Source: Streptomyces antimycoticus (GTDB lineage: Bacteria > Actinomycetota > Actinomycetes > Streptomycetales > Streptomycetaceae). From it: DNA of 64,000 bases. Position numbers and translations under genes: made by a program. Below the pieces are notes generated by a model. It was not told the origin of the DNA, searched no databases, and worked only from the letters and a program-made list of their open reading frames with translations. The DNA lies in contig NZ_BJHV01000001.1 in assembly GCF_005405925.1 (NCBI RefSeq), positions 3,038,001-3,102,000 on the forward strand. Reading direction: 5' to 3'. This document shows positions 42,441-46,386 of this stretch, one piece after another. Numbering within the stretch: the first letter of the stretch is position 1; each line of letters starts with the position of its first letter.

Positions 42441-42557
42441 GTGACAGCGGTGCAGGGCAGCGGCGGAGAGCGCAAGTACCAGCGGATCGCCAACGAACTC
42501 AAGGCGGCGATCACTGCTGGGGAGTACCGGCCGGTTGATCGTCGGTTTGACGCCTGA
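42441..42557 (+). pseudogene. Truncated GntR-family regulator (first ~33 codons)
   Basis: A GTG with an excellent ribosome site (GGAGGG) starts TAVQGSGGERKYQRIANELK, the normal N-terminus of a small GntR regulator. The expected continuation GEYRPGDRLPGE is lost after EYRP, and the frame ends at TGA 42555-42557. The remaining winged helix (about 35 residues) and any further domain are absent, and no rest of the gene is found nearby. The breakpoint is about 42531. Transcription and translation could still yield a 38-residue peptide. Confidence 0.8.
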
Positions 42558-42573
42558 GCGCGTGGGAGAGCCC

Positions 42574-43068
42574 ATGGACGACTGCGTTTTCTGCCGCATC
42601 GTGGAAGGGGTCGAGCCCGCGCGCATCGTCCACTCCGATCAGGAAACGGTCGCCTTCCTCCCGCTCACCCCGGCCGTCGCGGGCCATGTCCTGGTCATCC
42701 CACGGCAGCATGTGCGGGATGCCTGGGAGCTGGACGAGCCGACGAGTTTGGCGCTCACGCGTGCCGTACGGCAGGTCATGCACGCGGTGCGAAGCGCGTT
42801 CGAGCCCGAAGGGATGAACATCATCACCTCGGTCGGCTCCGTGGCGACACAGAGCGTCATGCACGTACACGTGCACATCGTTCCCCGCAACGAGAACGAT
42901 CGCATGGGCCGCGTCTGGCCGCCGCCGCGGAGTTCGGCACCCGAACACCTGGACCAACTGGCCGAGCGTCTGCGCGTTGCTCTGCGGAGTTCAGCCGAGA
43001 ACGACGGCGAGCAGCACGGCGAGGTGCGCGACCCCGATCCCGCCGTAGAAGAGCGAGAGAGTGACTGA
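42574..43068 (+). CDS. HIT-family nucleotide hydrolase/transferase
   Basis: A 164-residue HIT protein. CVFCRIVEGVEPARIVHSDQ is the usual N-terminus with two cysteines, PLTPAVAGHVLVIPRQHV follows, and the catalytic histidine triad is HVHVHIVPR (about residue 100). These proteins hydrolyse AMP-linked substrates such as adenosine 5'-phosphoramidate or dinucleoside polyphosphates. ATG 42574 is chosen because GGGAGAG lies just upstream. The last 25 residues overlap the convergent membrane-protein gene by 78 bp and look like opposite-strand sequence, so the C-terminus is longer than normal. Confidence 0.9.
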   Translation: MDDCVFCRIVEGVEPARIVHSDQETVAFLPLTPAVAGHVLVIPRQHVRDAWELDEPTSLALTRAVRQVMHAVRSAFEPEGMNIITSVGSVATQSVMHVHVHIVPRNENDRMGRVWPPPRSSAPEHLDQLAERLRVALRSSAENDGEQHGEVRDPDPAVEERESD

Positions 43069-43476
43069 GAAGGCGGCCTGCCGCCACCGCACCTGCCCCG
43101 CGTAGGGGTACGGATTCATGGAGAAGAGCTCCACCTCCGCACCTGGCTTCCGCGCTTGATCGTAGAGCTTGCGGAACAGCCGTTCCTGCCACAGGAAGTA
43201 GCCGTCGAGAAACCAGAACGCCACCAGGGGAACGAAGGCCGTCGCGGCCACCGACAAGCGCGAGCCTTCGGCGGCGAATACCAGCAGCCCTGCGGCCAGC
43301 GTCAGGCACCAGCCCTTGACCAGGAAGGAATTGGTGCCGAGCCGGGTGATGACGGCCTGGATGAACTCCAGGTGCTTGACCTGGTCCTGGCTGAGCGTCG
43401 GCCGGCTGCCGAGTATCCCTGTCGGTTCCGCTTCGCTTGTCACCCGACGAGAGTGTAATTCCTCGCCAATAGGCAT
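42991..43476 (-). CDS. Small membrane protein divergent from the TIR-NB-ARC gene
   Basis: A protein of up to 161 residues: soluble N-terminal 40, then helix KHLEFIQAVITRLGTNSFLVKGW leading into TM1 (about 62-80), TM2 (about 88-108, ending FWFLDGYFLWQERLFRKLYD), a basic/aromatic segment (ELFSMNPYPYAG) and TM3 (about 135-158). The NSFLVKGW and FLDGYFLWQERLFRKLY blocks recur in a family of uncharacterised bacterial membrane proteins I have seen in defence-like contexts; this is recollection only. Start is uncertain: ATG 43476 or GTG 43443. No clear ribosome site precedes either. Confidence 0.7.
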   Translation of the reverse strand: MPIGEELHSRRVTSEAEPTGILGSRPTLSQDQVKHLEFIQAVITRLGTNSFLVKGWCLTLAAGLLVFAAEGSRLSVAATAFVPLVAFWFLDGYFLWQERLFRKLYDQARKPGAEVELFSMNPYPYAGQVRWRQAAFSVTLSLFYGGIGVAHLAVLLAVVLG

Positions 43477-43488
43477 ACTGGAGGACCG

Positions 43489-46386
43489 TTGGCCTGGTGC
43501 AGGGGGTACATGGAGACGGTGTCGGGCGCTTCGGAGAAGGTCGATTTCTTCATCAGCTACGCCGGAGTGGAGCGGGCCTGGGCCGAATGGGTCGCCTGGC
43601 ACCTCCAGCAGCACGGCTTCAGCGTGGAGTTCGATCACTGGCACTGGCAGGCGGGGGACAACACCACGCTGCGCATGAGTGACGCACTGGCCCGCGCCGA
43701 CCGTTTCCTCGCGTTGCTGTCACGGTCGTACTTCGAGCGCCCCCGGTACACCCGGGACGAGTGGACCGCCGCGTTCGACGACCGTGAGCGGGGGACGGGC
43801 GGCTTCATCCCCTTGCATGTGGCCGAGCTGGAGAAGAGCGAGATCCCCGATCTGCTCCGCCCGATCAAGGCCGGCATCTTGTACGGGAAGAGCGAGGAGG
43901 AGGCGCTCACGGAGCTGCTGAGCGCCGTCGGTCGGCCCGCCGGGCCGCAGGGTAAGCCCGGCTTCCCCGGTTCGGCGGCCACGCTCCCGGACCGGGACGA
44001 AGCGGCCCCCCGGTTACCCGCGTCCACGCCGAAGGCATCGAACGTCCCGCCACGGCTTCCCCTGTTCACCGGCCGGGACGAGGTACTCGACCGCATTCGT
44101 ACGACGTTTCAGTCCCGGTCCCCCGTCCAGGCGTTGCACGGCATGGGCGGCGTGGGCAAGACACAGACCGCGGCGGAGTACTGCCATCGCTTCGCCTCGC
44201 AGTACGACACGGTCTGGTGGCTGGATGCCGAGCAGACCGTCACGCTCGACAGCCAGCTCGCGGACCTGGCTCATGCGCTCAAGACGGTGCCCGCCACCAT
44301 GCCGGTGGCGGACGCGGCCCAGAGCGCCCGCCAGTATCTGCGCACGAACGGTCGGTGGCTGCTGGTCTTCGACAACGCGGAGGACCCCGGCACCTTCAGG
44401 AGCCTCCTCCCCGAGGGCGGCGGTCATGTGCTGATCACCTCGCGCGACCCGGGCTGGCACAGCGCCGCCACCCCCATGGACATCGGCCTCTTCGCCCGCG
44501 CCGAGTCCCGGTCCCTGCTGGCCGCGTATGTGCCCAAGCTCCCGCAGACCGAGGCCGATCGGCTAGCCGAGGCTCTTGGGGATCTGCCGCTCGCCCTCGC
44601 CCAGGCGGGTGGCCTCATCGCCACCTCAGGCTTCTCCGTGGATACCTACCTCAAGGACCTCACTGCCACCAGCCGCCTCCTCGACCGCAGTGCCCCGATC
44701 ACCTACCGGCACAAGACACTCGGCGCGGCGGTACGGCTCTCCTCGGCTCACCTCGCCCGCACCGATCCCGTGGCATCGGAGCTCCTCCGGATCTGTGCCT
44801 TCCTCGCCCCCGAGCCCATCCCTCTTGACACATGGCTCACCAAAGTGGGCGTCGAGCTGCCGCCCTCGTTGAACGGCCTGGTCGGAGACCCGGTAGCGGT
44901 CGCCGACTCCATTGCCGCGATGGCCAGGCTTGGGCTGGTGCGGCCCCAACACGGCGGGCTGACGATCCACCGCCTCACCGCCGCGGTCCTGAGGGACCGT
45001 ACGGGTGCGAATGCGACCAGCGCCGCCCAGGAAAGCGCACACGAACACGCCAAGAACCTAGTGATCAGCGTGAGGCCCGATGACGAGGGGAGAGACCCAG
45101 CCACCTGGCAGGAGTGGGCCGGCCTTTTGCCGCATGTGATGACGCTGAGCGAGACCTGGACGCAAGATGACAACATGCGTGAGCTGTCGCTCGATGCCAC
45201 GCAGTATCTGCTGATGCGAGGGACGACCTCCGCGGCACACGATGCGGCGCGCGCACTGCACCAGCGGTGGTCAGCCGAGTTTCCCCCGGATCACCCGCAT
45301 TTGCTGACCGCCGAAACTCTTCTCACCGACAGTCTGAACATCCTGGGTCGGTACCGTCAGGCACTCGCGGTGATCGAGAACGTGGTGGAACTCAGCCGCA
45401 ACGCCCTGGGTGACGATCACGAGACAACGCTCGCCGCCAACACAGCACTCGCCACCGCATTCACCAACCTGGGTCAGTACCACGAGGCCCAAGTGATCGA
45501 GGAAGACGTCCTGCGGCGACGTCGAAGCACACTGGGCGAAGATCATCGCGACACCCTCACCTCAGGCAACAACCTCGCCGTCACCCTCGATACGCTCGGC
45601 GATCACCACGCCTCACGAGCACTCAAGGACGACGTTCTCAAGCGTCAACGCAGAGTCTTGGGAGAAAACCACCCCGACACGCTGATCAGCGCCACTAACC
45701 TCGCCGTCACTCTGATGGATCTCGGCGAGTTCGTCCAGGCCCGTGCGCTGCTCGAGGGCACCGTCGACCGCAGTCGCAAAACCCTCGGCGACAACCACCC
45801 CAACACCCTCAACGCCGCCAGCGGCCTGGCCGCTTCGTTGAAAGATCTGGGTCACCATCACAAAGCGCAGACGCTCAGAGAGGACGTCCTCACTCGGCGA
45901 CGCAAGGTCCTGGGCGAGGATCACCCCCACACTCTGGACTCCTACCGGGACCTCGCGTCCAGTCTGACCTACCTCGGTCACCATGCACGCGCTCGCTCAA
46001 TTCTCGATGACACGCTCAACCGAAGCCGCGCCATGCTCGGCGACACACATCCCGACACTCTTACTATCGCTCATAACCTTGCAACGGTCCTGATGCGCGT
46101 CAACCAGCACGTCCAAGCTCGCGCGCTGCTCCAGAGCACGCTCGACAAACACCGCGCGACCCTGGGCCCGGAGCACCCGAACACGCTCACCACCGCTGCC
46201 AATCTGGCCTCCGTGCTGAGCCATCTCGGGCGGCGCAAAGAAGCGCGCGTGCTTCTGCAGAACAGCCTCGAGGGATTTCGCAGAACACTCGGCGAAGAGC
46301 ATCCCAAGACCAAAGCCGTCGCCGAACAACTCGCCGGTTACAAGAAGGTCTTCGGGAAACGCAAGAAAAAGATCCGCCGCCCGTAG
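43489..46386 (+). CDS. TIR - NB-ARC - TPR protein (STAND-type, candidate immune sensor)
   Basis: A 965-residue multi-domain protein. TIR domain (about 17-140): KVDFFISYAGVERAWAEWVAWHLQQHG, then RADRFLALLSRSYFER. NB-ARC ATPase (about 185-470): FTGRDEVLDRI, P-loop HGMGGVGKTQTA near 218-225, Walker B WLLVFDNAED near 290, VLITSRD sensor and GDLPLALAQAGG (the GLPL-like motif). The C-terminal half carries eight TPR-like units of 42 residues with LGxxHPxTL caps (about 600-955). A TTA codon sits at 44014-44016, so translation would need bldA tRNA. TTG 43489 follows GGAGG; ATG 43510 is an alternative. It starts 13 bases from the divergent membrane gene. Function in defence is inferred. Confidence 0.9.
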   Translation: MAWCRGYMETVSGASEKVDFFISYAGVERAWAEWVAWHLQQHGFSVEFDHWHWQAGDNTTLRMSDALARADRFLALLSRSYFERPRYTRDEWTAAFDDRERGTGGFIPLHVAELEKSEIPDLLRPIKAGILYGKSEEEALTELLSAVGRPAGPQGKPGFPGSAATLPDRDEAAPRLPASTPKASNVPPRLPLFTGRDEVLDRIRTTFQSRSPVQALHGMGGVGKTQTAAEYCHRFASQYDTVWWLDAEQTVTLDSQLADLAHALKTVPATMPVADAAQSARQYLRTNGRWLLVFDNAEDPGTFRSLLPEGGGHVLITSRDPGWHSAATPMDIGLFARAESRSLLAAYVPKLPQTEADRLAEALGDLPLALAQAGGLIATSGFSVDTYLKDLTATSRLLDRSAPITYRHKTLGAAVRLSSAHLARTDPVASELLRICAFLAPEPIPLDTWLTKVGVELPPSLNGLVGDPVAVADSIAAMARLGLVRPQHGGLTIHRLTAAVLRDRTGANATSAAQESAHEHAKNLVISVRPDDEGRDPATWQEWAGLLPHVMTLSETWTQDDNMRELSLDATQYLLMRGTTSAAHDAARALHQRWSAEFPPDHPHLLTAETLLTDSLNILGRYRQALAVIENVVELSRNALGDDHETTLAANTALATAFTNLGQYHEAQVIEEDVLRRRRSTLGEDHRDTLTSGNNLAVTLDTLGDHHASRALKDDVLKRQRRVLGENHPDTLISATNLAVTLMDLGEFVQARALLEGTVDRSRKTLGDNHPNTLNAASGLAASLKDLGHHHKAQTLREDVLTRRRKVLGEDHPHTLDSYRDLASSLTYLGHHARARSILDDTLNRSRAMLGDTHPDTLTIAHNLATVLMRVNQHVQARALLQSTLDKHRATLGPEHPNTLTTAANLASVLSHLGRRKEARVLLQNSLEGFRRTLGEEHPKTKAVAEQLAGYKKVFGKRKKKIRRP

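Follow-up and report, generated by a model that had tools for sequence, protein, structure and literature searches.

We describe a three-gene cluster in Streptomyces antimycoticus (assembly GCF_005405925.1, contig NZ_BJHV01000001.1). The window is the whole stretch analysed, 64,000 nucleotides from position 3,038,001 to 3,102,000 of the forward strand, and coordinates are counted from its first letter. The cluster, at 42574-46386, consists of a gene for a HIT-family hydrolase, a gene for a small three-span membrane protein and, divergent from the latter, a gene for a TIR-NB-ARC-TPR protein; a short-chain dehydrogenase gene and an OsmC-like gene flank the trio. Its features are:

43510..46386, + strand: TIR-NB-ARC-TPR (STAND) protein, 958 amino acids, proposed sensor and signal maker (Pfam TIR_2 E 2.3e-27, NB-ARC 5.3e-10, TPR_10; NCBIfam NF040586)
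43546..43917, + strand: TIR domain of that protein, residues 13-136, with candidate catalytic E84 at 43759-43761 (alignment to PDB 3h16)
44125..44628, + strand: NB-ARC ATPase domain, residues 206-373, with P-loop GMGGVGKT at residue 211
42991..43443, - strand: three-span membrane protein of the PDC-M50A family, 150 amino acids, proposed signal receptor and membrane effector (PADLOC PDC-M50A E 8.6e-42)
42574..43068, + strand: HIT-family hydrolase, 164 amino acids, triad HVHVHI at residue 97, proposed signal-processing enzyme (Pfam HIT E 2e-21; PADLOC ThsC 59.5 bits)
42991..43068, no strand: tail-to-tail overlap of the membrane and HIT genes, 78 bp (also 78 bp in L101, a locus in a second genome)
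43444..43509, no strand: divergent intergenic region between the TIR and membrane genes, 66 bp

The HIT gene runs from an ATG at 42574 to its stop at 43068. The TIR gene, with its stop at 46386, may start at ATG 43510 (958 amino acids) or TTG 43489, and the membrane gene at a GTG (42991-43443, 150 amino acids), as in its relatives P0002 and P0003, or at an ATG (42991-43476, 161 amino acids). A sequence-only reading of this DNA had put the two divergent starts 13-46 bp apart; with the likelier starts the distance is 66 bp. The 78-bp overlap of the 3′ ends that it described is confirmed, and the TIR domain, NB-ARC domain and eight TPR units that it saw are recovered by Pfam as TIR_2, NB-ARC and eight TPR_10 matches when the protein is read from 43489 (seven from 43510). 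Within the 66-bp region, CGACGAGAGTGTAAT and CATACTGGAG are conserved in a pairwise alignment with L101 (two genomes only) and could be back-to-back -10 boxes. Just upstream of the HIT gene, a short open reading frame (ORF; 42441-42554, + strand) resembles by eye the start of a GntR-type regulator and ends early.

The TIR-STAND protein scores 666.4 bits against NCBIfam NF040586 FxSxx_TPR (cut-off 300). Its E84 aligns opposite a glutamate of the PDB TIR protein 3h16, which we take to be the catalytic one, and the NB-ARC P-loop is kept. Scanned with the models of PADLOC-DB 2.0.0, it gives weak matches to bSEFIR, PDC-S66 and three Argonaute-TIR models, and none to PDC-M50B or ThsB (E up to 1). 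The whole 11.17-Mb genome holds two TIR_2 and five HIT matches.

The membrane protein has no Pfam match (E up to 1), and among the matches listed no Pfam label falls on any protein of its family. The family is large, with 1380 homologues found by protein search and at least 6900 by profile, spread over Bacteria, Archaea and conjugative plasmids of enterobacteria. Three spans had been read from the sequence, and two lines of evidence agree on them: hydropathy peaks at 51-69, 74-92 and 142-160, and an AlphaFold2 model (pLDDT 91, pTM 0.79) with a long helix at 30-71 and further helices at 81-109 and 138-160. Near-invariant polar residues among 76 relatives include K34, H35, E37, Q40, R45, S50, K54, T59, D91, Q97, E98, R99, R102, Y105 and S137. 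By the order of the spans these sit on or near a single face of the membrane, in the stretches that precede span 1, follow span 2 and precede span 3, and such clustering is unlike a passive anchor and would fit a ligand or gating site.

We examined the neighborhood of the membrane gene in 81 loci, namely the window's own and those of the best 80 among 324 confirmed relatives, a set rich in Streptomyces. Because the gene caller missed the membrane gene in 27 of the 81, the final TIR and HIT counts were taken from six-frame ORFs, using profiles seeded from genes of the same loci; Pfam neighbor counts and record annotations are independent of those profiles. In 65 of the 81 loci the membrane gene has a TIR ORF no more than 1 kb away, and in 66 no more than 6 kb away. 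Per 100 kb of flank, TIR ORFs number 46.7 up to 1 kb, fall to 0.65-7.4 between 1 and 6 kb and reach 0 between 6 and 8 kb. This arrangement is far beyond chance, and among the 35 loci whose record titles place them outside Actinobacteria a TIR ORF is found within 1 kb in 32. In annotated plasmid and phage regions the TIR gene neighbors the membrane gene (within about 600 bp) in all 17 that were opened; these were chosen for spread, not at random, from 139 matching records, and for the Vibrio phage record the TIR partner is indicated only by a note reading ThsB. Their hosts are Klebsiella, E. coli, Campylobacter, Lactiplantibacillus, Priestia, Deinococcus, Vibrio, Bradyrhizobium and Sulfitobacter, with four Actinobacteria, one haloarchaeon and one Vibrio tailless phage as further sources. 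Confinement of the pair to the window's own clade had been set beforehand as grounds for refutation; it is found instead across Bacteria, in an archaeon and in a phage.

The partners are varied. Among the matches listed for 79 neighbors on the 3′ side (models overlap on some proteins) are 25 HIT, 17 ThsB_TIR, 9 TIR_2, 5 SEFIR and 4 CAP12-PCTIR_TIR, and for 80 on the 5′ side 12 TIR_2 and 8 ThsB_TIR; the TIR partners thus span four Pfam families (ThsB_TIR, TIR_2, SEFIR and CAP12-type). Some of ten TIR partners that were inspected carry beta-propeller, sulfatase-modifying-like, NB-ARC-TPR or weak AAA/NACHT matches. A PADLOC scan took in ten proteins, one of them a fusion of HIT and membrane protein; of the nine TIR partners from other loci, eight match ThsB-type, PDC-M50B or CAP12/Pycsar-type models and one bSEFIR. 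So many kinds of TIR with one membrane family are more easily explained by a small signal common to them all than by contact between specific proteins. The tight divergence on which the sequence-only reading had dwelt is present here, and is one of several layouts: in three loci (L064, L071 and L078) the membrane gene overlaps the TIR gene by 4 bp, and the most regular arrangement in Actinobacteria is the tail-to-tail pair of membrane and HIT genes.

Three loci deserve separate mention. In Vibrio phage 10N.286.55.A5_PE002 (L112, 1347-2635) a ThsB-like TIR gene overlaps a gene for a PDC-M50A-like protein (36% identity over residues 30-122) beside an integrase-like gene, perhaps a phage-borne copy of the pair directed at rival phages. 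A Vibrio chagasii plasmid (L122, 924-5135) has two PDC-M50A genes within about 4 kb, with a TIR gene beside each. At L043 (7986-9413) a gene for a TMEM175-type potassium channel follows the membrane gene, and neither TIR nor HIT was found in the locus.

HIT is the third member in Actinobacteria. Of the 46 actinobacterial loci, 34 have a HIT gene no more than 1 kb from the membrane gene, tail to tail with it in 30 of the 34, and none of the 35 other loci has one; in the annotated records it was met once outside Actinobacteria, in the haloarchaeon Natrinema. Seventeen congeners with the membrane gene, a sample evenly drawn but overlapping the locus set (at least 8 of its genomes are among the 80 loci, plus the window), include 15 with HIT and 12 with TIR inside about 1.5 kb. 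When the HIT protein was searched against 61 congeners, five matches exceeded 130 bits, all five beside the membrane gene, and the next best scored 88 bits; for 25 of the 41 lower-scoring places, which were checked, neither partner lies inside about 1.5 kb. HIT and the membrane protein are fused in one frame, HIT first, in four distinct genomes (Mycolicibacterium vanbaalenii and three of the window's genus), with a ThsB-like TIR gene just upstream of the fusions. Pairwise distances of the two proteins are correlated (r 0.807 over 47 loci, with L036 and L103, which are the same genome, counted once; the best of 2000 permutations, which ignore shared host ancestry, gave 0.298), and remain so without the fusions (r 0.878, 43 loci). 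The histidine triad fits the pattern used in 47 of 48 module HITs, and the 48th (L019) retains three histidines. The counts, the fusions and the distance correlation bear out the earlier proposal that HIT is part of the unit. The further suggestion that it acts on an ADP-ribose-like product may also be right. In one locus without a TIR match (L034, 8007-8927) a Nudix hydrolase gene, 21 bp from the membrane gene, takes the position that HIT has in the tail-to-tail pairs. We considered Nudix as a substitute for HIT and set the idea aside as too thin, with this one convergent case and NUDIX in 2 of the 79 3′ neighbors among the matches listed.

The trio is an accessory insertion of patchy distribution. 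At L101 the same trio, in the same order and orientation, occupies the same site, with hisF on one side and the gene corresponding to window gene 40340 on the other; in the window, extra genes flank it on both sides (the OsmC-like gene, to 48977, and the dehydrogenase). This second trio, the neighborhood counts and the distance profile uphold the view of the three genes as a unit. Identity between window and L101 is 65% for the TIR-STAND protein, 77% for the membrane protein and 75% for HIT, against 92-98% for the his proteins. Faster evolution of the module was considered as an argument and dropped, as other flanking proteins are equally divergent (63% for gene 40340, 69% for 38932). In 20 further congeners, drawn from 40 others found, none of the trio genes occurs on the 3′ side of hisF (12 kb each); beyond hisF, the first window gene to be matched is 39653 in 19 of them and hisI (38069) in L224, and three of the 20 (G011, G020 and G026) carry the membrane gene elsewhere in the genome. 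The membrane gene is present in 17 of 150 sampled congeners, the window's own genome counted.

Several known systems were compared. The sequence-only reading had placed the pairing outside the named systems known to it; PADLOC does list a TIR and membrane pair, as candidate PDC-M50A/B. The window membrane protein is PDC-M50A, and the ThsB-like TIR beside its relative in L050 matches PDC-M50B (1e-62). The window locus differs from PDC-M50 in having HIT as a third part and in its TIR protein, a 958-residue STAND protein without a PDC-M50B match. In the openly licensed literature we found neither PDC-M50 by name nor a description of the trio of TIR, three-span protein and HIT.

Thoeris is the nearest functional parallel in that a TIR protein stands beside a separate gene for a (proposed) effector, and the window HIT matches the ThsC model of PADLOC Thoeris type II. 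The PADLOC authors suggested a role for ThsC in forming the signal or breaking it down, perhaps as an off-switch (in a passage of PMC8565338). Effectors of Thoeris types I, II and IV are given as SIR2, TM-macro and caspase-like proteins, and in Thoeris II NAD-derived TIR signals act on membrane effectors (both in part of PMC12847820). In contrast, the proposed effector here is a 150-residue three-span protein and, being without a Pfam match, has no SIR2, macro or caspase domain found by Pfam. Part of PMC7159879 describes SLATT proteins, small effectors of the membrane that are predicted to respond to nucleotide signals and that in some systems accompany TIR and other domains related to nucleotides. 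The window protein is likewise small, membrane-bound and found with TIR domains, but has three spans rather than two, and SLATT is not among 25 listed of the 31 Pfam families weakly matched by 76 members of its family.

The FxSxx-COOH systems are a further parallel, as the window TIR-STAND protein is above the NF040586 cut-off and an AP-ATPase with N-terminal TIR lies downstream of peptide-processing genes in those described in a section of Kaur et al. 2020 (PMC7159879). No match to an FxsB-like radical SAM protein was found at the window locus, and an FxsB-like query (one query, from L047) had a sole match in the genome, at C1:9125417, 35% over residues 391-772 and some 6 Mb away. Membership was rejected, there being no FxsB at the locus. 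In seven other loci (L005, L008, L012, L014, L030, L039 and L040) genes that encode FxsC-like TIR proteins and ATPase-like proteins adjoin a tail-to-tail membrane-HIT pair and share one strand (ATPase label by eye). In three more (L004, L009 and L010) the gene facing the membrane gene encodes a TIR/SEFIR protein, and a radical-SAM-like gene (label by eye) stands about 1.6 kb from the membrane gene; these copies may lie inside FxSxx-type loci. The pair of TIR and membrane genes is already known as a catalogued candidate; new here are HIT as a dedicated and in places fused partner, the STAND-type sensor (FxsT-like, without FxsB), the variety of sensors and the insertion site.

What was observed directly is that the genes are associated, and broadly so, that the TIR partners vary, that HIT is dedicated to the module and in some genomes fused, and that the insertion is patchy. 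From these observations and the sequence comparisons, the trio is probably a Thoeris-like signalling cassette (probability about 0.6), in which a TIR signal would pass to a three-span receptor and effector and HIT would process the signal. The TPR and NB-ARC parts would sense a phage component, whereupon the protein would oligomerise; the clustered TIR domains would then, judging from the family, cleave NAD to a diffusible ADP-ribose-type signal. The three-span protein may bind this through H35, E37, Q40, R45, S50, K54, D91, Q97, E98, R99, R102 and S137, oligomerise in turn, perturb the membrane and so stop phage growth. HIT enzymes cleave nucleotidyl bonds, and this one might cleave the signal and set the threshold, a step less certain than the preceding one; its fusion to the receptor would locate a signal-processing enzyme where the signal is read. 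Several findings weigh against this reading. No TIR lies inside 6 kb in 15 of the 81 loci or inside about 1.5 kb in 5 of the 17 congeners carrying the membrane gene, and 9 of the 81 loci have neither TIR nor HIT. At L002 the membrane and HIT genes stand at the same site as in the window and the TIR gene is not kept. None of the 35 non-actinobacterial loci has HIT; HIT is thus optional, and this favors tuning over necessity. Structure search gave the membrane model no confident match to solved or viral folds, and Pfam (E up to 1) recognised no nucleotide-binding domain in it.

Part of the same evidence can be read otherwise. In the same relay TIR could make a precursor that HIT matures into the membrane protein's ligand. 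HIT stays beside the membrane protein even where no TIR is found (6 of the 34 HIT loci have no TIR inside 6 kb), and in the four fusion genomes it is joined to the N-terminal side of the membrane protein, as expected of an enzyme that feeds a receptor. We think this unlikely, because the TIR-membrane pair often occurs with no HIT nearby (of the 35 non-actinobacterial loci, 32 have TIR within 1 kb and none has HIT), so that HIT is unnecessary for the action of the membrane family. Less likely still is a membrane protein that anchors or inhibits the TIR protein, with the TIR NADase itself doing the killing. The close gene coupling, including the three 4-bp overlaps, would suit such a restraint, but partners from four Pfam TIR families are hard to square with a specific inhibitor, and L002 retains its membrane and HIT genes with no TIR gene at the site.

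That the trio is a published Thoeris type under another name, such as type III, is compatible with a Thoeris-like cassette and has somewhat better odds than either of these, though we doubt it. A 'Thoeris type III' is named in a portion of PMC12390725, and PADLOC ThsB models match many of the partner TIRs; yet the effectors described for types I, II and IV in part of PMC12847820 are SIR2, TM-macro and caspase-like, and the window membrane protein matches no Pfam family. Mere co-location in defence islands, without shared function, could be imagined from the restriction, helicase and other TIR genes near some loci, and is very improbable given the distance profile, the fusions, the distance correlation and the 17 of 17 annotated regions.

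Beyond the cassette itself, and at slightly less than even odds, the family may define its own branch of TIR immunity: a single conserved three-span receptor-effector would respond to NAD-derived signals from interchangeable sensors (ThsB-like, SEFIR, CAP12-type and STAND), and a dedicated HIT, joined to the receptor in some genomes, would tune the signal at the membrane. Several TIR signals are known, and effectors for only some of them (PMC12847820 in part). If the membrane family is a receptor of TIR signals, both its ligand and the killing step can be tested directly, and the HIT fused to the receptor would be a candidate for the off-switch, or the ligand-maturing step, that such systems may need.

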